DNA of 11,739 bases from contig JAJYYW010000010.1 of NCBI GenBank assembly GCA_021800575.1, forward strand, positions 1 to 11,739, read 5' to 3'. Shown here one piece after another: positions 1-10,243 of the stretch. Every line of letters begins with the position of its first letter. The first letter of the stretch is position 1. Source of the stretch: a bacterium. GTDB lineage: Bacteria; JAMCPX01. The notes beneath the pieces are model-generated. The model saw nothing but the letters and a program-made list of their open reading frames with translations, searched no databases and was not told the DNA's origin. The position numbers were made by a program, and so were the translations under genes.

Positions 1-563
1 CAATGGAAGGCATGGGCAAACGCTGGGTATCGCACCCCATTTCTCCGACACCCGAGGTTTTGAACCTGGCACGGAAGGCGGGCTGCTGGTATGTCTATCA
101 TGCCATTTACACGATTTCGGACAAGATCAAGGATAGGATAAAGATGTTTCACGATTACGGCATCGGCGTTGAAGGCACCATTCTCCTCGGTATGGACGAA
201 CACACGGAAGACTTTATTAAAAGATTCGTTGACTTCCTTCTAACCGTAGAGCTCGATCTCGCCGAATTCACAGTCCTTACCCCATTCCCGGGCACTCAGG
301 TCTACGAACAAATGAAATCGGAAGGCAGGATATTCGACACCGATTGGAACCACTACAACGCGTCTACCGTGGTCTTCCAGCCGAAACAGATGTCTCCGGA
401 TACCCTCCAGCGGTTGTATTATGATGCATGGGACAACTTCTACAAGGAGGAATCCCAATCCGTCAAGATGAGCAAGCTGTTCCTTCAAATTTACCGGGAC
501 AAGCGAAAGGACAATCCGGTAATCGCTGAAAATAACAGGCACGCGCAGCCGGTACGGCCCTGA
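1..563 (+). CDS. B12-binding-type radical SAM protein, C-terminal part (partial)
   Basis: The 5' end lies outside the window and the reading frame is open from the first base, so the Met at position 3 is probably internal. The visible part matches the end of the radical SAM barrel (GIGVEGTILLGMDEHTEDF, then TVLTPFPGTQVYEQM) followed by the C-terminal region usual in B12-binding radical SAM proteins (DUF4070 type, with WNHYNASTVVFQPKQMSP). The CxxxCxxC cluster motif and the cobalamin-binding domain would be upstream and cannot be checked. Related enzymes methylate or rearrange unactivated carbons of lipids and polyketides; HpnP is a hopanoid example. The stop lies about 84 nt before the first ACP, so this gene may belong to the same pathway but is not tightly coupled to it. 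Family assignment is fairly secure; the substrate is unknown. Confidence 0.85.
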   Translation, partial: MEGMGKRWVSHPISPTPEVLNLARKAGCWYVYHAIYTISDKIKDRIKMFHDYGIGVEGTILLGMDEHTEDFIKRFVDFLLTVELDLAEFTVLTPFPGTQVYEQMKSEGRIFDTDWNHYNASTVVFQPKQMSPDTLQRLYYDAWDNFYKEESQSVKMSKLFLQIYRDKRKDNPVIAENNRHAQPVRP

Positions 564-634: not shown

Positions 635-641
635 AAGGAGG
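635..641 (+). promoter_or_regulatory. strong Shine-Dalgarno that decides the ACP1 start
   Basis: AAGGAGG ends 2 nt before a first ATG (644) and 5 nt before a second ATG (647). The second has the better spacing. It rules out the far upstream TTG at 611, which has no such site. The ammonia-lyase gene has a similar arrangement (AAGGAG, two nt, then ATGATG). Confidence 0.6.
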
Positions 642-646
642 TAATG

Positions 647-952
647 ATGATAACAAATACCAAAGACCTGACGCTCGAAGACATTCAGAGGAGGGTTTCG
701 GAGATATTCATTAACGAACTCAAGCTCGAAGATGTCACTCCCGAGACGCTGGATCCGGACATGCACCTGATGGAGGAACTCGGTATTGATAGCATGGATC
801 TCATAACGGTTGTTCTTGTTCTTAAGGATGAGTTTTCGGTCAACATAGCAGAAGCGGACTATCCAAAACTCACCACGATCAGACTTGTATCAGAATACTT
901 GAAGGAGAAAATCGAACATGGCAGACTCACAGACCGGAAAGCAGCAAGCTGA
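647..952 (+). CDS. acyl carrier protein 1
   Basis: A protein of about 101 residues with the usual four-helix acyl carrier pattern. The phosphopantetheine attachment site is Ser49 in LGIDSMDL, and an acidic helix II follows. It should hold the growing chain as a thioester after modification by a phosphopantetheinyl transferase encoded elsewhere. The start is chosen from the strong Shine-Dalgarno just upstream; ATG 644 adds one Met and cannot be excluded. The last 35 nt overlap the next ACP gene in another frame, so the charged tail (GRLTDRKAAS) is written in sequence shared with the start of ACP2. Family assignment is secure; specificity (starter or extender) cannot be read from the sequence. 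Confidence 0.9.
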   Translation: MITNTKDLTLEDIQRRVSEIFINELKLEDVTPETLDPDMHLMEELGIDSMDLITVVLVLKDEFSVNIAEADYPKLTTIRLVSEYLKEKIEHGRLTDRKAAS

Positions 953-1238
953 AAAGCCGTCCGTCGGCACATTGTCAGTCGATCAATTGACCGATGAACT
1001 CAAAAAAAAGGTACTTGATCTCCTCAACATACGAGATATCCGTCCCGACCAGATCGACAACGATGCTCCGCTGGTCGGCAATGAACTTGGTATGGATTCT
1101 ATCGACATCCTGGAACTGGTTACCGTAATCGAGAAAGACTACGGGGTAAAAATAGATAACAAGGAATTAGGGGAAAAGGTATTTGCTTCATTCAATGCTC
1201 TGGCACATTACCTTCATGATAACAGTACCTTAGTTTAA
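918..1238 (+). CDS. acyl carrier protein 2
   Basis: A 106-residue acyl carrier protein with attachment site Ser61 in LGMDSIDI. An N-terminal extension of about 18 residues, rich in Gln, Ser and Lys, precedes the first helix. AAGGAG lies about 10 nt before the ATG, inside the end of ACP1. It is clearly different in sequence from ACP1, so the pair is not a recent duplication. Paired ACPs are common in aryl polyene and flexirubin clusters, where one may take the aromatic starter and the other the malonyl extender; that division of labour is inference here. The stop codon is one base before the ketosynthase start, which suggests translational coupling. Confidence 0.9.
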   Translation: MADSQTGKQQAEKPSVGTLSVDQLTDELKKKVLDLLNIRDIRPDQIDNDAPLVGNELGMDSIDILELVTVIEKDYGVKIDNKELGEKVFASFNALAHYLHDNSTLV

Positions 1239-1239
1239 T

Positions 1240-3420
1240 GTGCCCCAGATGCCGCTGCCGGGTATTTTTATCACAGGTTTGGGTATTATCAGCCCCTTGG
1301 GAAGGGGATCCGGCGCAACACTCGATGCACTCAAACAGGGCGTATCCGGCATACGGTCAGCCAACCTTTTTGGCGTAAGCCCTGACCAGCACGTACCTCT
1401 TGCACCGGTTGATGTATCCTTTGCGACCGAGGATGGCGTTCCCCGGACCCATGCGCTTGCGCTTGCCGCGGCACACGATGCACTGGCGGGAAAACAGGGC
1501 GCACCGGATGCCATAGTCATTGGAGTCACCACCGGCGGCATGCCAAAAACCGAGGTCCTGCTCAGGGAAAGATCAACATCTGCCGGGGCATACGCATACC
1601 ATGGAGCGGGAACCGTGGCTACCTATCTGGCCCGGCACCTCGGGTGCACGGGCCCGGCGATTGCCCTGTCGACCGCGTGCTCCAGCGGCACAGCAGCCAT
1701 CAAGATAGCACTCGAGATGATCCGGCAGAAGAAAGCAGACAAGGTGCTTGTCGGCGGTGTCGATGCCCTGTGCCGGTTCACCTATTTCGGATTTCTTTCC
1801 CTGCAATTGCTGGATCCTGCAGGCGCACGTCCGCTTGACAGGGACCGCGCCGGAATAACGCTGGGAGAAGGCGCAGCGATGCTCCTGCTCGAAGCGGCAC
1901 CGAGCCCGCCCCCGGATTCTGTAGCCCGGATTTTGGGCGCCGGTGTTTCGTGCGATGCGTATCATCCGACAGCCCCCCACCCCACGGGAGACGGTGCGCT
2001 CAAGGCCATGCGGGACGCACTATCGGATGCAGGGCTGGCGGCGGGCGATATCGGATACATCAATCTCCACGGAACGGCAACGAGGGACAACGATGCTTCC
2101 GAGGCAGCGGCCCTGCGGTCACTGTTCGGAGATCACGTACCGCCCCTTTCATCCACCAAGGGCATGACCGGGCATTCACTCGGTGCAGCCGGTGCTGTTG
2201 AGGCCGCTCTGTGTGCACTGTCCATAGCAGAAGGCATGATGCCCGGCACTACCGGGTGTACCAATCCCGACCCCTCCCTCGGCATCGTTCCCCTGCATGC
2301 AACCGAATCCGCCCCGGTAAAAACAGCTCTGTCGAACTCGTTCGGCTTCGGCGGCAATAATGCCGCGGTTGTTATCGGATCCGCGGGTGCGGCATTCGGG
2401 CAGCAGCCCCCGGCGCGGCCAAAGCGGCTGGTTATCACCGGGCTTGCATGCCTGACCGGATATGGTGATCTGTCCGCTTCGTTCGGGCGGTTTTCACAGG
2501 GTAATCCGGTCGCGGGTATGCTGTCCGACGAGGAGATATCGAAAGACCTTCCCCAACGCCAGGTCCGCCGCCTCAAGAGGCTGCCGCGCATGGCGCTTGC
2601 GCTCGCAACAGCTGCACAGAAACACGCCGGGACATCAGCCAGGCCTTCCTCGGTATTCTTCGGTACCGGGTGGGGGCCGCTTTCGGAAACGTACGATTTT
2701 CTGACCAAGCTGTTCGAATCGGATATGAAATTTTCCAGTCCAACCGATTTCATCAATTCGGTTCACAATGCACCCGCAGGCCAGGTTGCCATGGAGTTTA
2801 AGTCCATGGGCGCCAACATCACGGCGACCGGCGGGGATTACTCCTTCGAGCAGGCCCTCTATAGTGCGAGTCTCCTTGCTTCCGAAGAAGAAGAGCTGCT
2901 CCTCTTCGGTGCGGACGAGACGCACCATGTGCTGACTCCGATCCTGGACCCTTCTGCCGCACTCGATCCGGTACCCTCGGACGGCGGCGGGGCCATCAGG
3001 GCGGTTGCGTCTTCTCTTCCATCGGCCGGACCGGCAATAACGGTCCTCGGATACGGCAGGTCGCCTGACGATTCGGGACAGGCAGCTGCGAACAGCCTCG
3101 GATCAGGGGGTGACCTCAGGGCAGACTACGGCGCGATTTTTGCCGGCATCCCCGCTGCGCACGAAGCGCTGGCTCGAAGGCAGCTGTCCGGTTTTCTCGC
3201 CCGTTCAGGGTTCAGCGGACCGGTCATCGATTACCGGAAGTACACGGGACAGTATGCGGCAGCCTCTGCAGTCGCGACCGTGTTGGCTGTTCAATCAATC
3301 AAGGCAGGGTTCCTTGCAGGAGGGTTGACCGGCACCGGAGACGTTTCTCTGGGCAACCGGGGCATCCTCGTGATGGGCTTCGGTCCCTCCTGGACCGCGC
3401 TGGGTATTCATCCGTCATGA
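1240..3420 (+). CDS. ketosynthase-chain length factor fusion (active KS + inactive KS-like)
   Basis: A 726-residue protein of two ketosynthase folds. Residues 1 to about 385 are a complete FabF-type KS with Cys147 (STACSSG), His277 (NLHGTAT), Lys307 and His312 (KGMTGHSLG), so it should catalyse decarboxylative condensation on ACP-bound substrates. Residues about 392-726 resemble the Ketoacyl-synt_2 family of aryl polyene clusters (FINSVHNAPAGQVAMEF). In this half the Cys position is Thr530 (ITATGGDYS), the final His is Gln671 (YTGQYAA), and no HGT motif is seen. It therefore looks like a built-in chain length factor. These partners are normally separate proteins forming a heterodimer. The start is GTG one base after the ACP2 stop; ATG at 1249 is an equally reasonable start, and neither has a clear Shine-Dalgarno. 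Confidence 0.88.
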   Translation: MPQMPLPGIFITGLGIISPLGRGSGATLDALKQGVSGIRSANLFGVSPDQHVPLAPVDVSFATEDGVPRTHALALAAAHDALAGKQGAPDAIVIGVTTGGMPKTEVLLRERSTSAGAYAYHGAGTVATYLARHLGCTGPAIALSTACSSGTAAIKIALEMIRQKKADKVLVGGVDALCRFTYFGFLSLQLLDPAGARPLDRDRAGITLGEGAAMLLLEAAPSPPPDSVARILGAGVSCDAYHPTAPHPTGDGALKAMRDALSDAGLAAGDIGYINLHGTATRDNDASEAAALRSLFGDHVPPLSSTKGMTGHSLGAAGAVEAALCALSIAEGMMPGTTGCTNPDPSLGIVPLHATESAPVKTALSNSFGFGGNNAAVVIGSAGAAFGQQPPARPKRLVITGLACLTGYGDLSASFGRFSQGNPVAGMLSDEEISKDLPQRQVRRLKRLPRMALALATAAQKHAGTSARPSSVFFGTGWGPLSETYDFLTKLFESDMKFSSPTDFINSVHNAPAGQVAMEFKSMGANITATGGDYSFEQALYSASLLASEEEELLLFGADETHHVLTPILDPSAALDPVPSDGGGAIRAVASSLPSAGPAITVLGYGRSPDDSGQAAANSLGSGGDLRADYGAIFAGIPAAHEALARRQLSGFLARSGFSGPVIDYRKYTGQYAAASAVATVLAVQSIKAGFLAGGLTGTGDVSLGNRGILVMGFGPSWTALGIHPS

Positions 3421-3427
3421 GGAATCC

Positions 3428-4903
3428 ATGAACGACCGTGATTCTGTCATTATTATCGGCTCGGGCATCGGCGGTATGACTGCGGGGATCGTTCTTGCAA
3501 AGCTGGGCTACCGGGTAACGGTTGTAGAGAAAAACAAACTTCCCGGAGGGCTCATGAGGAGCTATACCAGGAAGGGAATCGAGTGCGAAGTCGGTATCCA
3601 TTATGTTGGAGCCCTGGATGCAGGACAGCCGCTGCGCCAGATCTTTGACCTCCTCGGTGTTTCCTCGCGCCTGCCCTGCGTGCGTATGGGAGACGACGGC
3701 ATTGTCGACAAGTACGTACTACCGGACACGACTTTCCATTTTCCCCCGGGCATCGGCCAGTTCGAAGAAAACCTCCATCGTGCATTTCCCGCAGAACCAC
3801 GGCAGGTACGGGAGATCGTTTCCCTGCTGCGCAGCACCCTGCAGCAGTTTTCCCTGAAACAACTCCTCTTTGAAAAAAACCAGGAATTCGACCTGTCGCT
3901 CCACCTGCAGCCCCTTGAACATTATTTCGACACGCTCGGATGCTCGCACAGGCTGCGCGGTCTCCTGTCCATACCCCTCGGATGGATCGGTGTCGGTCCG
4001 GACGAATGTCCCCTGTACCTGTGGAGTTCCTCCCTCGCATCGTATCTTATGTCTTCATGGAAGCACGAGAGCAGCGGTGCGGCATGGGCAGACGCCTTTG
4101 CCGGCAGGTTCCGTGAGCTCGGAGGCGAGATCATCTGCGATGACCGGGTGACGAACATCCTCGTGCAGGATAAGGTCGTCCAGGGTGTCCTGTTGAAATC
4201 AGGCAGGCAGTTGAACGCCCCGGTGGTGATCGCCGGCATACATCCGAAACTGATGCTCCGCATGCTCCCGGATCATGCGCTGAAGCCATCGTTCAGAAAC
4301 AGGATCTCCTCATTGGAAGAAACGCACGGCATCGTGGGCATCCATCTGGCGGTGCCCGAACAGGCGGTCCCCTACCATTCGTACAACACGTTTTTCGTGG
4401 AAGACAAGCAGCCGCCGCGGAGCGGGGTGACCTTCTTCAATGTCAGGAGAACTTCGAAACCCGGCTACAATGTGATCTCCCTGATCGCAGACGGGCCGTA
4501 TGACAAATGGAGGCAATGGGAACAAACGACCAGGGAACACCGCCCGGCGGATTACCGCGAGGCGAAGGAGCGGGAGACGGCCGTACTCCTGGACCGGGCA
4601 CACCGGGCATTCGGTCCCCTGCCCGGCGCCAACCTTGTAGACGCCTACACGCCGCTCTCGTTTCTTGCATGGATGGACAGCCCTGAAGGAGGTGCGTATG
4701 GCGTTTCCCGCTCTGTCCGCCAGAAGTTCAAAACTGCGGCGCTGCATCGTACCCCCATCGGCGGATTACACGCGGTGGGACAGAGCATTTTCGCGCCGGG
4801 TATCCTGGGTACTGCACTGGGGACCCTGCGCGTGCTTGCGCAGATAGTAGGACCGTCTGTTTTACAAAAACAATTTACAGACCTGAAGATAGAAGGAATC
4901 TAA
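3428..4903 (+). CDS. FAD-dependent phytoene desaturase/retinol saturase-like oxidoreductase
   Basis: A 491-residue flavoprotein. The N-terminus has the dinucleotide-binding motif GSGIGG (residues 11-16) ending in Glu34 (VVEKN), and the C-terminus has the FAD-closing pattern GLHAVGQSIFAPGILGTALG. The GQ..PGILG form is closer to carotenoid isomerases and all-trans-retinol 13,14-reductases than to classical CrtI. Such enzymes desaturate, saturate or isomerise long conjugated polyenes, often at a membrane. Similar genes occur in flexirubin-type clusters and in clusters proposed for ladderane lipids. The Shine-Dalgarno GAGGA overlaps the ketosynthase stop, with the ATG 7 nt after that stop. The direction of the reaction cannot be told from the sequence. 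Family assignment is strong. Confidence 0.85.
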   Translation: MNDRDSVIIIGSGIGGMTAGIVLAKLGYRVTVVEKNKLPGGLMRSYTRKGIECEVGIHYVGALDAGQPLRQIFDLLGVSSRLPCVRMGDDGIVDKYVLPDTTFHFPPGIGQFEENLHRAFPAEPRQVREIVSLLRSTLQQFSLKQLLFEKNQEFDLSLHLQPLEHYFDTLGCSHRLRGLLSIPLGWIGVGPDECPLYLWSSSLASYLMSSWKHESSGAAWADAFAGRFRELGGEIICDDRVTNILVQDKVVQGVLLKSGRQLNAPVVIAGIHPKLMLRMLPDHALKPSFRNRISSLEETHGIVGIHLAVPEQAVPYHSYNTFFVEDKQPPRSGVTFFNVRRTSKPGYNVISLIADGPYDKWRQWEQTTREHRPADYREAKERETAVLLDRAHRAFGPLPGANLVDAYTPLSFLAWMDSPEGGAYGVSRSVRQKFKTAALHRTPIGGLHAVGQSIFAPGILGTALGTLRVLAQIVGPSVLQKQFTDLKIEGI

Positions 4904-4916
4904 CCAGGAAGGAGTT

Positions 4917-6473
4917 ATGATGATTATAAAGAAATCCAGAACCGGGGATTCCCGGGCACTGGTCACCATAGGAGAAGAGGACCTCACGGTAGACCAGGTT
5001 GCCGCTGTTGCATGCGGCAGTGCCCGGGTGGCAATCAGCACACGGAAAGACTTCCTCGGGAGGCTGAAGAGGTCGCAGGAGGTGCTCATGCGCACCCTCG
5101 ACGCGGGCGATCCCATCTACGGCGTTACCACAGGATACGGCGCTGCATGCGGCAACAGGATCAAGAAGCACAACACGGAAGAACTCGGAAACAACCTCAT
5201 CAAATACCACGGCTGCGGAACCGGACAGCCGCTCGGCGAAGAGGAGACGCGCGCCGCCATGGTCTGCAGACTGGCGTGCTTTGCACGCGGGTACTCGGGC
5301 GTTTCCGCAGGCCTGATGCGGGCATTGGCCCAACTGCTCAACAAAGGAATAACACCCGTCGTTCCTTCCCTCGGCTCTGTCGGTGCGTCCGGGGATCTGA
5401 CCCCCATGTCCTACATTGCCGCCTGCCTTGCCGGGGACCGGGACGTTCTGTACAATGGGCGCAGGATGAACGCTGGCAGGGCCCTCGCGCATGCAGGACT
5501 CAGGCCATACCGCTTCCTTCCCAAGGAGCCCCTTGGCATGATGAACGGAACATCCGTCATGACCGGTATTGCAGCACTTGTCCTGCAGAAAAGCCGGGTG
5601 ATTGCGGACGCGGCGGTTGCGGCAAGCGCACTCTCGCTCCACGCCCTGATGGGTCATGAGCGGCATTTCCACCCGACCGTAACGGATTCGAAACAGCACC
5701 CCGGACAGGCGCTGACCGGCAGGAAACTGCGGGATCTTCTGGCATGCACGGATTGTCCCGAAGAATCGAGCAGGCAAGACGATCTGCAGGATCCCTACTC
5801 CGTACGATGTTCTCCCCAGGTTCTCGGCGTTGCGTACGATGCCCTGGACTGGATAGAGCAATGGGTGGCGCGCGAGATCAACAGTGCCAACGATAACCCG
5901 CTGGCAGACGGCGACATTAACCAGATGTTCATGGGAGGAAATTTCTACGGGGGCCATATCGCCTATGCCATGGATGCGCTCAAGAGTGCACTGGCCTCGG
6001 TTGCCGACATGGCCGACCGGCAAATGGCCCTCCTGGTCGATCCCCGGTTTAACCGCGGACTGCCGGCAAATCTGGTCAATGTGAACGGGGAAAAGCAGGT
6101 CCTCAACCACGGGTTTAAAGGGATGCAGATCACCGCATCTGCGCTCACGGCTGAGGCCTTAAAAAATACCATGCCCGCGTCGTCGTTTTCCCGTTCCACC
6201 GAATCCCACAACCAGGACAAGGTCAGTATGGGTACCATCGCCGCGCGCGACGCCGCACTCCAGTGTGAACTTGCAGGCCGCGTCGTCGCTATCCACCTGA
6301 TGGCGTCCGTCCAGGCATGCGAACTGCGGGGGGACTTGGCCAGCAGACCCAACCTCGCCTCCATCGTCAGGTCGGTACGGAGCGTTGTCCGTCCAACGGT
6401 ATTCGACCGGACCATGGACAAGGACATCGAGGCACTCACCCGTGCACTCCCGGACGTGGTATCCTCCTTATGA
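4917..6473 (+). CDS. MIO-dependent aromatic amino acid ammonia-lyase (TAL/PAL-like)
   Basis: A 518-residue enzyme of the HAL/PAL/TAL family, which eliminates ammonia from an aromatic amino acid. Ala157-Ser158-Gly159 (VGASGDLTP) forms the MIO electrophile. Tyr68 (IYGVTTGYG), QDPYSVRC, NSANDNP and GGNFYG are all intact. The C-terminal motif is SHNQDKVSMG, closer to PAL/TAL (HNQD) than to histidine lyases (NQEDHVSM). The selectivity loop reads Tyr97-His98, where histidine lyases have Ser-His. With ACPs, ketosynthase and thioesterase beside it, cinnamate or p-coumarate as a polyene starter is the likeliest product. AAGGAG precedes ATGATG; the first ATG is used here. The stop overlaps the thioesterase start in ATGA. 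Tyr versus Phe cannot be decided. Confidence 0.88.
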   Translation: MMIIKKSRTGDSRALVTIGEEDLTVDQVAAVACGSARVAISTRKDFLGRLKRSQEVLMRTLDAGDPIYGVTTGYGAACGNRIKKHNTEELGNNLIKYHGCGTGQPLGEEETRAAMVCRLACFARGYSGVSAGLMRALAQLLNKGITPVVPSLGSVGASGDLTPMSYIAACLAGDRDVLYNGRRMNAGRALAHAGLRPYRFLPKEPLGMMNGTSVMTGIAALVLQKSRVIADAAVAASALSLHALMGHERHFHPTVTDSKQHPGQALTGRKLRDLLACTDCPEESSRQDDLQDPYSVRCSPQVLGVAYDALDWIEQWVAREINSANDNPLADGDINQMFMGGNFYGGHIAYAMDALKSALASVADMADRQMALLVDPRFNRGLPANLVNVNGEKQVLNHGFKGMQITASALTAEALKNTMPASSFSRSTESHNQDKVSMGTIAARDAALQCELAGRVVAIHLMASVQACELRGDLASRPNLASIVRSVRSVVRPTVFDRTMDKDIEALTRALPDVVSSL

Positions 6474-6895
6474 CAGATAACGTACTCCGGACATTCTCGG
6501 TCAGACTGAAGGTACCGTTCCATCACGTGGATCCTATGCAGGTGGTCTGGCATGGACATTATTTCGAGTACTTCGAAGCAGCACGGGACGGCTTGTTCGA
6601 CAGCATTGGTATCGGTCTCGAAGATTTTTACGGCCGCTATGGCTACCTGTTCCCGGTCATCCGGGGTTCTGTCAAATTCATCCGTCCGCTCCGGTACAAA
6701 GATGCGTTCGTGTGTACGGCGAAGGTCCTCGAGGCAAAACGCAAGATCGTGGTGGACTACGAAATTACCATGGAAGCCGGGAACGTCCGGTGTACCGCCG
6801 GACGTACCGAACAGGTCGTGCTCAAGATGCCGGAAGCGGTCATCGAATACAACATCCCGAAGGAAATCTGCGATGCGCTGGGGATCGCACAATGA
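6470..6895 (+). CDS. hotdog-fold acyl thioesterase (4-hydroxybenzoyl-CoA thioesterase-like)
   Basis: A 141-residue protein with the 4HBT signature HVDPMQVVWHGHYFEYFEAAR, including candidate catalytic Asp21 and the following HG. Relatives hydrolyse acyl-CoA or acyl-ACP thioesters; aryl polyene and flexirubin clusters usually carry one. The start is fixed by the ATGA overlap with the lyase stop; the frame is open further upstream, but that part is shadow inside the lyase gene. No Shine-Dalgarno is visible before it (the bases there are TCCTCCTT), so translation probably depends on coupling. Its own stop overlaps the kinase start in the same ATGA way, placing acid release and acid activation in coupled genes. 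Whether the substrate is the finished chain or a stalled intermediate is unknown. Confidence 0.87.
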   Translation: MTDNVLRTFSVRLKVPFHHVDPMQVVWHGHYFEYFEAARDGLFDSIGIGLEDFYGRYGYLFPVIRGSVKFIRPLRYKDAFVCTAKVLEAKRKIVVDYEITMEAGNVRCTAGRTEQVVLKMPEAVIEYNIPKEICDALGIAQ

Positions 6896-8610
6896 CAGGG
6901 GACCTTTTCAGCGCGCTGCGTGCCGGTACCGAGAGAATATCTGTGTGGGCAGACCTCCTCGATAGTATCAACGTGTACCCTGTTGCAGACGGCGACACGG
7001 GCCGTAATTTAACCATAAGCCTGATGCCTTTGAAATCTCCTGCCGGGGACCGGTCTGTTCTGATTGAAAGACTCTTTCTGACAGCACGAGGCAATTCGGG
7101 AAACATCGCATCGCAATTTTTCACCGGACTCCTGTCCGGCGATACCGGGGCCGGGCTTATCGATGCCGTGCGGGAGGGAACACAACGTGCATGGCAGGCC
7201 ATAGCGGACCCGCGGCCCGGGACCATGCTCAGCGTATTCAGCGAGCTGGAGCGCGCACTCCGGGAAACTACCGGAGACACCGATGCCGCACGGGTATCGA
7301 TCGTGCTCGGCCGCCTGCGGGACACGGTGCTTAAAACAACCGGCGAACTGACACCGCTGCAGGACGCCCACGTCGTTGATGCAGGCGCGCTGGGCATGTT
7401 TATATTTTTTGATGCCTTTTTCAATGTGCTGTACCTCGATGAGCCGCTGTTTGCCCCGGTCCACGATCTGTTCCGGGATTACCTCACGGTTCACGATACC
7501 CGGCCGGGCGGCATAGAATCGGGTTCGTGCGTCGACGCCGTGGTCCGGTTGAACATCCCGTCACCGGACTCCCTCAAAAACCTTTCCCTGATCGGCGAAA
7601 GCATCGTATCCCGGGAATACGGGGGCCGTCTCAAGCTGCACATCCATACGAAGGACCAGTCGTCCCTGCGGGACATTCTCTCCCGCGAAGGTACCATCGT
7701 CCAATGGGCGTCCGATGACCTCGAAGCACAGACGAAGACGTTTTCCGCGGTCCCTGCCTCCCGGACCATCCATATCATGACCGATGCCGCGGGAAGCCTG
7801 ACCAGGGACGACGCACACACGCTCGGCATAACCCTGCTCGACAGCTACATCACCATCGGCACGAAAGACTACCCCGAGACCCGCGTGGACAGCCAAGAGC
7901 TGTATGAAGCAATGTCCGGGGGAATAAAGGTGACCACATCCCAGGCATCTATCTCAGAGCGAAACCAGCACTACGAAAAAGTGCTGGGCCTGTACGGCAC
8001 TGCCCTGTACCTGTGTGTCGGTTCTGTCTACACCGGAAATTACAGCGCGGTCATGGAGTGGAAAAAAACCAACGATCCCGGCGACCGGCTCAAGGTCATC
8101 GACTCCGGGTCGGCTTCCGGAAGGCTGGGGCTTGCAGCGCTGGCGACCGCGGAAGTCTCAAGAACAGCCTCCGATGGAGCGGCGGTCGTGGATTTTGCAG
8201 GACGTGCCGCAGCTGCATGCGAGGAATACATCTTCCTGGACACCCTCTCGTACCTGGCAGCCAGCGGCAGGATGTCGAAGACAGGCGCTGTCTTCGGAGA
8301 CATGCTGAGCCTCAAACCTGTGGTCAGCCCTCTGCCGGAAGGGGCAAAAAAGGTCGGCATGGTAAGAAACAGGAAAGACCAGATCGCCTTTGCCCTGAAA
8401 AAGCTGGACACATGCGCCGACAGCGGTGACCATCCGCTCGTTATGCTCGAGTACACGGACAATCAGTCATGGGTGGCCGGAGAGATCGCTCCCCTGGTAC
8501 AAAACAGGCTCCCGGACGCGAAGATAATCATACATCCTCTCTCCCTGACAACCGGCGTTCACACCGGTCCCGGAACCTGGGGCATAGCCTTTCTGCCCGT
8601 AACCTCATAG
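6892..8610 (+). CDS. FakA-FakB-like fusion (DAK2 kinase + DegV fatty-acid-binding protein)
   Basis: A 572-residue protein joining the two parts of bacterial fatty acid kinase. Residues 1 to about 190 are a DAK2/DhaL-type ATP domain: INVYPVADGDTGRN (Asp33, Asp35), ARGNSGNI (67-70) and VDAGALG (163 on). Residues about 210-275 match the C-terminal region of FakA (LKLHIHTKD, His250 and His252). Residues about 290-572 are a full DegV domain: IHIMTDAAGS, TSQAS (349-353), YLAASGRMSKTGAVFG and GVHTGPG with His557, the positions that hold the carboxylate in FakB. In Firmicutes, separate FakA and FakB phosphorylate free fatty acids to acyl phosphates. Coupled to the thioesterase, it probably acts on an acid of this pathway. 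The frame is open upstream, but ATG 6892 gives the correct domain N-terminus. Confidence 0.9.
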   Translation: MTGDLFSALRAGTERISVWADLLDSINVYPVADGDTGRNLTISLMPLKSPAGDRSVLIERLFLTARGNSGNIASQFFTGLLSGDTGAGLIDAVREGTQRAWQAIADPRPGTMLSVFSELERALRETTGDTDAARVSIVLGRLRDTVLKTTGELTPLQDAHVVDAGALGMFIFFDAFFNVLYLDEPLFAPVHDLFRDYLTVHDTRPGGIESGSCVDAVVRLNIPSPDSLKNLSLIGESIVSREYGGRLKLHIHTKDQSSLRDILSREGTIVQWASDDLEAQTKTFSAVPASRTIHIMTDAAGSLTRDDAHTLGITLLDSYITIGTKDYPETRVDSQELYEAMSGGIKVTTSQASISERNQHYEKVLGLYGTALYLCVGSVYTGNYSAVMEWKKTNDPGDRLKVIDSGSASGRLGLAALATAEVSRTASDGAAVVDFAGRAAAACEEYIFLDTLSYLAASGRMSKTGAVFGDMLSLKPVVSPLPEGAKKVGMVRNRKDQIAFALKKLDTCADSGDHPLVMLEYTDNQSWVAGEIAPLVQNRLPDAKIIIHPLSLTTGVHTGPGTWGIAFLPVTS

Positions 8611-8659: not shown

Positions 8660-8860
8660 TTATGCAGTTTCATATTGAAGGACTTTGAGCTGTTCAGGTT
8701 TTATTCTTGTGCTCAGATTGAGTATCTCAACACCAACTACTTTGCCGTCTGCATTGAGATCCAAGATAACGCCGGGTTGTACTTCCTCGGATTCCACGAT
8801 AGAAGATTCATCCAATCGGAAGTAAAGGGCGTCATTTTCGTTATCAATCTTTAGTCTCAT
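8660..8860 (-). CDS. DUF2283 protein, likely antitoxin partner
   Basis: A 66-residue protein matching DUF2283: N-terminal NENDALYFRLDES, then GVILDLNADGKVVGVEILN. It follows the DUF4258 gene with a 4-nt ATGA overlap. Its Shine-Dalgarno AAGGAGG is made of the last codons of that gene, so the two are translated as a unit. DUF2283 genes are often found next to DUF4258 or RelE-like genes and are predicted antitoxins; no DNA-binding domain is evident in the 66 residues. The gene converges on the biosynthetic operon with only 49 nt between stop codons and no clear hairpin terminator there. Family assignment is firm; function is inferred from context. Confidence 0.85.
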   Translation of the reverse strand: MRLKIDNENDALYFRLDESSIVESEEVQPGVILDLNADGKVVGVEILNLSTRIKPEQLKVLQYETA

Positions 8861-9114
8861 TTTTGCCTCCTTGCTCTCCGGTCAAAAAATACCGTAATCA
8901 CTTTTTGTGGCAAAACATGCGGATTCACTACCACATGAAGGATTCGTCCGCCACGCTCCTCGATACTTCTAAAATAATGTACATTGTTGTCTTTTTCAAC
9001 GTTTTCCCATTCAGGGTTATCAAGAGTACGTTGTACCCATTCTTCCGGAATTTCTCGTTCTTTCAGCATGTCTGTAGTATGTGCCGATAATTTAAAGTCC
9101 ATCCTTGACCACAT
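8857..9114 (-). CDS. DUF4258 protein, likely RelE/ParE-like toxin
   Basis: An 85-residue protein with the DUF4258 pattern: FKLSAHTTDMLKEREIPEEWVQRTLDNPEW at the N-terminus and the strand-rich KVITVFFDRRARR at the basic C-terminus. This family is related to RelE/ParE-type toxins, some of which cut mRNA on the ribosome. It is the first gene of a two-gene unit with DUF2283. The start is uncertain: ATG 9114 gives MWSRMDFK, while the internal ATG 9102 gives MDFK, closer to the usual family N-terminus; neither has a well-placed Shine-Dalgarno. A perfect inverted repeat lies 11-26 nt upstream. Toxicity is inference from family and arrangement. Confidence 0.8.
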   Translation of the reverse strand: MWSRMDFKLSAHTTDMLKEREIPEEWVQRTLDNPEWENVEKDNNVHYFRSIEERGGRILHVVVNPHVLPQKVITVFFDRRARRQK

Positions 9115-9352: not shown

Positions 9353-10243
9353 TTATTCTTTTGCACCCGCTTTTTTGAGTAAATTAATAACTTCCCTGTA
9401 TCCGTAATGCTGTGCGACACTCAATGCCGTTGCACCTTGATTATCTTTGATATTCACGTCGGCACCATGCTCTATCAAATACCGTATAATTTTAGAATCC
9501 TCAATAATAGTGGCCTCGATAAGGGCTGAATGACCATAATCGTCTTGAGCATTTACGTTGGCCCCTTTCCCTATAAAATATTCAATCATGTCCATGCGAC
9601 CTGTCATGCCTGCTGTGTTAATGAGGGCTGGTTCAATGTTATCGTCTTTAGCTCCGGCATTTTTTAGAGTCCTTACAATATCCGTGTATCCATTTTTATC
9701 GGCATACATCAATGCCGTATGCCCCTCCTCAGTCCGGGCATTTATGTCGCTCATCTCCGAAATATGCTCCAAAAGAACATACGCAGTGTCCAGACATTCA
9801 GCATCCAATGCCGATGCTAAAACAGTGTAACCCTGAGTGTCTTTGGCGTTCATATCTGCCCCATGTTGTAAAAAAAGTCTGGTAATGTCCGGATAACCTA
9901 TTGTATAGAATAAAATGGAATCCGGCCTACAGTCCTTTGAAGTATTTTCTGATGTAATATCGATCACTGCTCCATGATCCAAAAGAAATTTCACCATCTC
10001 AATATGACCTTCAGCCGCTGCAAAAAGTAAAGCTGACCGACCTGTTCGATCGTGGGTGTTTATGTCTTCTCCGTTTTCCGAAAGAAGTTTAACAACATCC
10101 ATATAACCTTTGCTTGATGCTTCGAATAAAGCTTGCCAGCCCTGACCATCTGTTTCATTTACATCGGCACCTTCTGCAATTAACCGTTTTAACCGATATA
10201 AATCCTTGTTCCTGATGGCCTTTATTAATTCAGTCGTTTGCAT
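9353..10243 (-). CDS. ankyrin-repeat protein
   Basis: A 296-residue protein made almost entirely of about nine ankyrin units of roughly 33 residues, recognisable by GxTALxxAxxxGxxxIVxxLLxxGADVNxxD variants such as YGHSALIEATI and IEHGADVNIKDNQG. The unit around residues 100-135 and the EPALINTAG unit are more degenerate. There is no signal peptide or membrane segment, so it should be cytoplasmic and bind a protein partner. AAGGAG lies 7 nt before the ATG, so the start is well supported. It is AT-rich compared with the biosynthetic operon. In bacteria such stand-alone ankyrin proteins have varied roles, including partners of effectors or toxins; nothing nearby fixes its role. Confidence 0.9.
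   Translation of the reverse strand: MQTTELIKAIRNKDLYRLKRLIAEGADVNETDGQGWQALFEASSKGYMDVVKLLSENGEDINTHDRTGRSALLFAAAEGHIEMVKFLLDHGAVIDITSENTSKDCRPDSILFYTIGYPDITRLFLQHGADMNAKDTQGYTVLASALDAECLDTAYVLLEHISEMSDINARTEEGHTALMYADKNGYTDIVRTLKNAGAKDDNIEPALINTAGMTGRMDMIEYFIGKGANVNAQDDYGHSALIEATIIEDSKIIRYLIEHGADVNIKDNQGATALSVAQHYGYREVINLLKKAGAKE

Follow-up and report, generated by a model that had tools for sequence, protein, structure and literature searches.

A one-chain fatty-acid-kinase-like protein associated with aryl-polyene-type gene clusters and its possible role in lipid assembly

A contig of 11,739 nucleotides (nt) from a bacterial genome (GCA_021800575.1, contig JAJYYW010000010.1; the whole stretch is called the window here) encodes a 572-residue protein in which a FakB-like (DegV) carrier is tethered to a minimal FakA kinase. 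In this work, the terms fusion and kinase are used interchangeably for this Dak2/FakA_L/DegV protein and its homologues. The architecture of the protein, the conservation of its catalytic residues and its association with aryl-polyene-type genes were computed and are reported as such. We infer a kinase activity, the identity of an acid and an attachment step; the reading that we favor, and for which we find the case evenly poised, is that the fusion is the ATP-dependent acyl kinase of an aryl-polyene-type lipid pathway, phosphorylating a released acid for attachment.

According to Pfam, the fusion contains a Dak2 domain (residues 30-176), a FakA-like middle domain (213-282, slightly below the cut-off) and a DegV domain (293-569), and no FakA_C; its DegV half has the same fold as known DegV/FakB chains. 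The initial annotation correctly placed Dak2 and DegV on one 572-residue chain, while the region that it called FakA C-terminal is FakA_L. Nine FakA residues (N32, D38, D40, T41, N82, D185, C240, H282 and H284) do not vary among the 40 homologues aligned, and between 50 and 52 sequences of a wider set of 52 retain them. Among these, Cys240, His282 and His284 of FakA_L correspond to C213, H250 and H252 in the fusion (40/40; 52/52, 51/52 and 50/52 in the wider set), and the nucleotide- and Mg-site residues of FakA_N are present as well. One homologue sample was picked by patterns from the query fusion and is tilted to close relatives. The wider alignment and tree leave out 6 of the 60 candidates (three fragments and three lost by a simple caller of open reading frames, ORFs).

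In the FakB half, where residue numbers were transferred by motif from Staphylococcus aureus FakB1, T62, R173 and H270 are kept in 51 to 52 of 52 homologues. The carboxylate residue Ser95 is replaced by Gly across the clade (40/40 and 52/52), which hints at an altered ligand, and Ser171 is Ser in the window fusion, yet Gly in 38/40 and 50/52 homologues. In S. aureus, FakA_NL works with FakB in the absence of FakA_C, the domain to which FakB binds (PMC9136124); the fusion would therefore hold what catalysis needs. The protein looks like a fatty acid kinase, and probably functions as one, in a fused form devoid of FakA_C and with an altered carboxylate site. As a natural one-chain FakA-FakB, it may also serve structural studies of how the two halves meet.

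The conservation of the kinase residues bears on one alternative, namely that the fusion serves to bind or shuttle the finished lipid acid, its kinase role being non-essential, or that it salvages acids lost through hydrolysis. DegV proteins are lipid carriers, and a proof-reading role was suggested for the thioesterase ApeK (PMC8253772); however, the catalytic residues, which a pure carrier would not need, are conserved even in divergent members, and we regard this alternative as highly improbable.

Two distant Dak2-DegV fusions (L080 and L081; 25% identity) carry the canonical carboxylate Ser, and their contigs (6.6 and 9.2 kb) show no match to the other cluster queries.

Evidence for a role in a lipid pathway comes from the neighbors of the kinase gene. 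Loci with at least 5 kb on either side of the kinase (34 of 56, all outside the window's phylum) were regarded as well-flanked. A glycosyltransferase (GT2) or acyltransferase (LpxL-type or PlsC-type) gene of the kind expected for aryl polyene attachment lies within 12 kb of the kinase in 34 of 34 such loci versus 0 of 20 control stretches; these controls, 20 kb each and taken from 10 of 20 newly read genomes, contained no cluster gene and, in two cases, a weak SDR match. The same 34 loci include genes for a ketosynthase (29), radical SAM protein (28), thioesterase (25), AMP-ligase (20), ammonia-lyase (19), MMPL transporter (17) and LolA (14). The neighbor queries were derived from L008, L010, L012, L016, L029, L039 (the source of the GT2 and LpxL queries) and the window, so these loci match partly by construction. 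When the closest recognised same-strand gene no more than 1.5 kb away was counted (an unrecognised ORF may intervene), the downstream neighbor at 50 loci was GT2 in 34, PlsC in 6, LpxL in 3 and a different gene in 3, with 4 loci showing none, and the upstream neighbor at 53 loci was a thioesterase in 37, a ligase in 11, LpxL in 4 and a lyase in 1. In the phylum of G010, the fusion occurs in 30 of 395 genomes spread across the phylum; 20 of the 30 loci were newly read, nine were covered otherwise and G281, a partial match, was left out. All 20 newly read loci hold at least one of GT2, LpxL-type, PlsC-type, MMPL and LolA genes, and just three hold a lyase. In the kinase tree, considered for topology alone, the window groups with L016 and L060, in which lyase, thioesterase, kinase and PlsC are consecutive.

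A second survey took in the class to which G009 belongs (a Smithella genome, the source of L023). Of its 155 genomes, 81 have the fusion and 74 the lyase; both occur in 71, the fusion alone in 10 and the lyase alone in three (G020, G069 and G131). Among the 81 kinase genomes, 65 have a same-strand lyase gene no more than 10 kb upstream of the kinase, 64 have a thioesterase gene no more than 1 kb upstream, and 57 have both. Five genomes of the class have a thioesterase match without the kinase, and two of the 81 (G028 and G107) hold only the distant fusion (25% identity). Of 91 kinase match rows, 83 entered these counts; the other eight are further fragments of split genes and leave the genome counts unchanged. 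Most of the genomes surveyed are metagenome bins, and their completeness varies. The proposed tie between a one-chain kinase and an aryl-polyene-type pathway, often with a thioesterase, is supported by the 64 of 81 genomes and by the contrast between loci and controls, and the opposite case, in which most copies of the fusion would stand apart from such clusters, was not observed.

Two further features were noted in these clusters. A family of MMPL transporters with a C-terminal methyltransferase domain (L012:13708-16782 and homologues, ~1,020 residues) occurs in 20 loci, mostly of the Smithella type, downstream of the kinase and GT2. Repeated BtrH_N/DUF4872 genes end Smithella-type clusters (L010:18221-21180 and L014:17100-21000).

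The 11 loci with a ligase as the nearest upstream gene (L033, L039, L070-L075 and L077-L079) follow the order ApeP-like, SDR, LolA, DUF3261-like, radical SAM, ligase, kinase, GT2, LpxL, as far as the stretches reach; the labels ApeP-like dehydratase and DUF3261 are weak, their matches being below the Pfam cut-offs. GT2 and LpxL stand behind the kinase in 10 of the 11, and the stretch of L078 ends at the kinase. No lyase or thioesterase was found in the stretches read of these loci, and the whole genomes of two of them (G010 and G011) gave no lyase match. A different case is G012 (L034), where the lyase is not near the kinase and a 34% lyase match lies on a separate contig. Because these 11 loci have the kinase beside a ligase and no lyase or thioesterase nearby, the kinase tracks the attachment genes better than it tracks the lyase. 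The initial annotation had also proposed that the kinase replaces an AMP-ligase; as a general rule this was rejected, since 20 of the 34 well-flanked loci have an AMP-ligase-like gene no more than 12 kb away, and such a gene is the nearest recognised one upstream in 11 of 53.

The window itself, contig C328, belongs to a small genome assembled in many pieces (1.86 Mb, 359 contigs, 80% complete). Its plus strand carries a single operon-like run, from the C-terminus of a radical SAM protein through the 572-residue fusion:

3..563, plus strand: radical SAM protein (DUF4070), C-terminal part cut by the contig start (PF13282, 9.4e-6)
641..952, plus strand: acyl carrier protein (ACP) 1, start codon uncertain, ORF from 611 (PF00550, 4.9e-9)
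918..1238, plus strand: ACP 2 (NF006617 PRK09184, 70.5 bits versus a cut-off of 70)
1240..3420, plus strand: ketosynthase (KS) fused to a chain-length-factor (CLF)-like half (NF006618 PRK09185, 6.5e-97 on the first half, 325 bits, cut-off 407; Ketoacyl-synt_2 at 435-560 on the second)
3428..4903, plus strand: CrtD/CrtI-like FAD-dependent oxidoreductase (TIGR02733, 6.6e-32, under the cut-off; NAD_binding_8)
4917..6473, plus strand: aromatic amino acid ammonia-lyase (PF00221, 1.2e-156)
6470..6895, plus strand: 4HBT (YbgC/FadM-like) thioesterase (PF03061, 6.4e-9; TIGR00051, 2.5e-12)
6892..8610, plus strand: fused fatty-acid-kinase-like protein, FakA_N (Dak2) + FakA_L + FakB (DegV), 572 residues, without FakA_C

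The 4-nt overlaps between lyase and thioesterase and between thioesterase and fusion (ORFs 4917-6473, 6470-6895 and 6892-8610), described previously, were confirmed. The closest solved relatives of the lyase are PAL, HAL and TAM chains. It carries the motif N-L-I-K-Y-H and a Gln at the position of Glu in histidine lyases; read only against the alignments with these chains, the two features would suggest a PAL/TAL-like pocket, and the substrate may be Phe or Tyr. An ordinary histidine-degradation lyase was rejected, as the gene stands in a biosynthetic run and scores 436.7 bits versus a hutH cut-off of 539.15. The KS/CLF and ACP genes at 918-3420 are of the PRK09185/PRK09184 type, the ACP model being at its cut-off and the KS model under it, and we take these models to be markers of aryl polyene clusters. 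A ladderane cluster was weighed for the radical SAM and CrtI-like genes and set aside, the aryl polyene gene set fitting better. Directly behind the kinase, two small overlapping genes lie on the opposite strand (8660-9114, minus), presumably a pair resembling DUF2283/DUF4258. They are followed by a gene for an ankyrin-repeat protein of 296 residues (9353-10243, minus), in a stretch with a G+C content of ~0.41 versus 0.57-0.61 across most of the cluster and perhaps of different origin.

In the nine genomes of the window's phylum, the fusion and the lyase occur in the same six. The DegV family search matched five of the nine, always in the fusion, and missed G006, where the fusion is cut by the contig end; it turned up no other DegV protein in any of the nine genomes. 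PlsX is present in all nine, and a DegV match is absent from the cluster-free G001, G003 and G008. A role as the host's housekeeping fatty acid kinase was rejected because the fusion is the sole DegV protein found and is absent from cluster-free genomes with PlsX.

The chief rival to an aryl polyene substrate is an ordinary fatty acid for the same lipid, which the fusion would phosphorylate either as a second, aliphatic chain of the polyene lipid or in the salvage of thioesterase-released acids. Many of the matched DegV/FakB chains, of the same fold, name common fatty acids as ligands in their titles, and such a substrate would explain why the kinase is kept where the lyase is absent. However, the kinase follows the polyene cluster and not general lipid synthesis, as the three cluster-free genomes illustrate, and the clade-wide exchange of Ser95 hints at a different ligand; we consider this rival possible but somewhat unlikely.

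In the window's phylum, the genes of the pathway seem to be distributed between two or more loci. Close relatives of the PlsC-like acyltransferase (67-92%, plus the query) are found in exactly the six kinase genomes, and the other three give matches of 26-32%. In G007, the surroundings of PlsC include LpxL, a B12 radical SAM protein, a deacetylase-methyltransferase fusion, a radical SAM protein with DUF4070, ketoreductase (KR), LolA, a DUF3261-like protein (a weak label) and KS. G002 has part of this G007-type second locus, a second KS lies in L123, and the window's own genome shows only KS and PlsC of it, on contig C116 (L120). The deacetylase of G007 (L123:2459-3955) is a polysaccharide deacetylase fused to a methyltransferase, and it may be speculated that it signals an amino-sugar acceptor. 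Beside the second locus in G002, a DAHP synthase is encoded (L121:3490-4368, minus), which perhaps supplies aromatic amino acids.

The second proposal of the initial annotation was that the fusion turns the lyase product, cinnamate or coumarate, into an acyl phosphate, from which PlsX would pass the starter to ACP. The overlap of lyase, thioesterase and kinase in the window agrees with it. A single ligase query revealed no ligase specific to the six kinase genomes, ligase-like relatives being present in 9/9, and the 20 kb of sequence read at the G007 operon (L044) contain no match to either ligase query. In Enterococcus faecalis, FakAB/PlsX are reported to route short and medium acids into elongation (PMC11586512). 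On the other side, the kinase occurs without a detected lyase in 15 of 34 loci (within 12 kb), in the whole genomes G010 and G011 and in 10 of 81 class genomes; ligase-like genes co-occur at the loci counted above, and in G006 (L045) an AMP-binding gene lies ~7 kb upstream on the other strand. Starter activation is thereby weakened and, taken overall, improbable; it could still hold in the window's lineage, since no cluster-specific ligase was found there. Activation before attachment fits both lineages, whereas starter activation fits only the one with the lyase.

In the favored reading, then, the lyase would produce an arylacrylic acid, which the KS/CLF with ACPs, reductase and dehydratase would elongate. 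The thioesterase would release the finished acid, and the fusion would take it into the DegV tunnel and phosphorylate it to an acyl phosphate. LpxL-type, GT2 and PlsC-type enzymes could then attach the acyl group to a (sugar) lipid, directly or via a PlsX-mediated return to ACP. The fusion is read as an activation step before attachment because the gene set fits aryl polyene clusters and the TesE/Fak system offers a precedent. A bolder and rather unlikely extension is that LpxL- or PlsC-type enzymes have turned acyl-phosphate-dependent and take aryl-polyene acyl phosphates directly from the dedicated one-chain kinase, forming a separate branch for specialised outer-membrane lipids.

Several points weigh against an activation step before attachment. 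Acyl-ACP is the usual donor of LpxL- and PlsC-type enzymes, and the kinase may supply the lipid's ordinary acyl chain instead. PlsC adjoins the kinase in just two of the six phylum genomes, G004 and G005 (L008 and L009); in the window, none of the attachment genes appears along the 3.1 kb that follow the kinase, and G007 shows no query match in the 2.8 kb behind it. None of the 34 well-flanked loci comes from the window's phylum, and the 11 ligase loci show no releasing enzyme in the stretches read. The E. coli aryl polyene gene table lists no such kinase (PMC8253772).

Taken as a whole, the earlier interpretation is partly supported. The results suggest that some bacteria activate aryl-polyene-type acids as acyl phosphates, and the new part is the place of the fused kinase in aryl-polyene-type clusters; a literature search, with preprints and most subscription papers outside its scope, gave no description of such a fusion or of this place. 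Even for E. coli, the way in which the finished aryl polyene acid is attached is a proposal, according to which the thioesterase may free the acid and acyltransferases attach it (PMC8253772). A conserved kinase beside thioesterase and acyltransferases would provide the activation chemistry in this branch, and, if its role is true, acyl-phosphate chemistry would have been carried from phospholipid synthesis into specialised lipids.

Compared by family name and without alignment, the clusters share with apeA-R of E. coli CFT073 the KS, KS/CLF, ACPs, KR, a putative dehydratase and a thioesterase, as well as LolA- and putative LolB-like proteins, an RND-type transporter, a glycosyltransferase/acyltransferase and a lysophospholipid acyltransferase (PMC8253772). 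The KR, dehydratase, LolA/LolB-like and acyltransferase genes were seen in the window's relatives, the ApeP-like and DUF3261 matches being weak. In contrast, genes for a kinase, a lyase, a radical SAM protein and a CrtD-like protein are missing from the E. coli table, and the pathway of the window's phylum appears to extend over at least two loci. The celluxanthene cluster, with its type I polyketide synthase, differs and was rejected as a model (PMC12144888). YloV/DAK2 proteins (TIGR03599) resemble the fusion in the N-terminal half, which scores 127.5 bits against a cut-off of 396.1, while the C-terminal half of the fusion is DegV. With TesE/TesS and Fak of Enterococcus and Streptococcus, an acid freed by a thioesterase is reactivated as acyl phosphate, TesE followed by Fak forming a release and re-activation step of ordinary metabolism in E. 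faecalis (PMC12288450); those systems handle ordinary fatty acids, whereas the window genes overlap within a specialised pathway. With S. aureus FakA/FakB, the fusion shares the nucleotide site, the Cys-His-His triad of FakA_L and the FakB fold with Thr62, Arg173 and His270 (PMC9136124, PMC8892158). Unlike S. aureus Fak, it is a single chain without FakA_C, has Gly in place of the carboxylate Ser95 and is encoded with genes of the polyene-lipid type.

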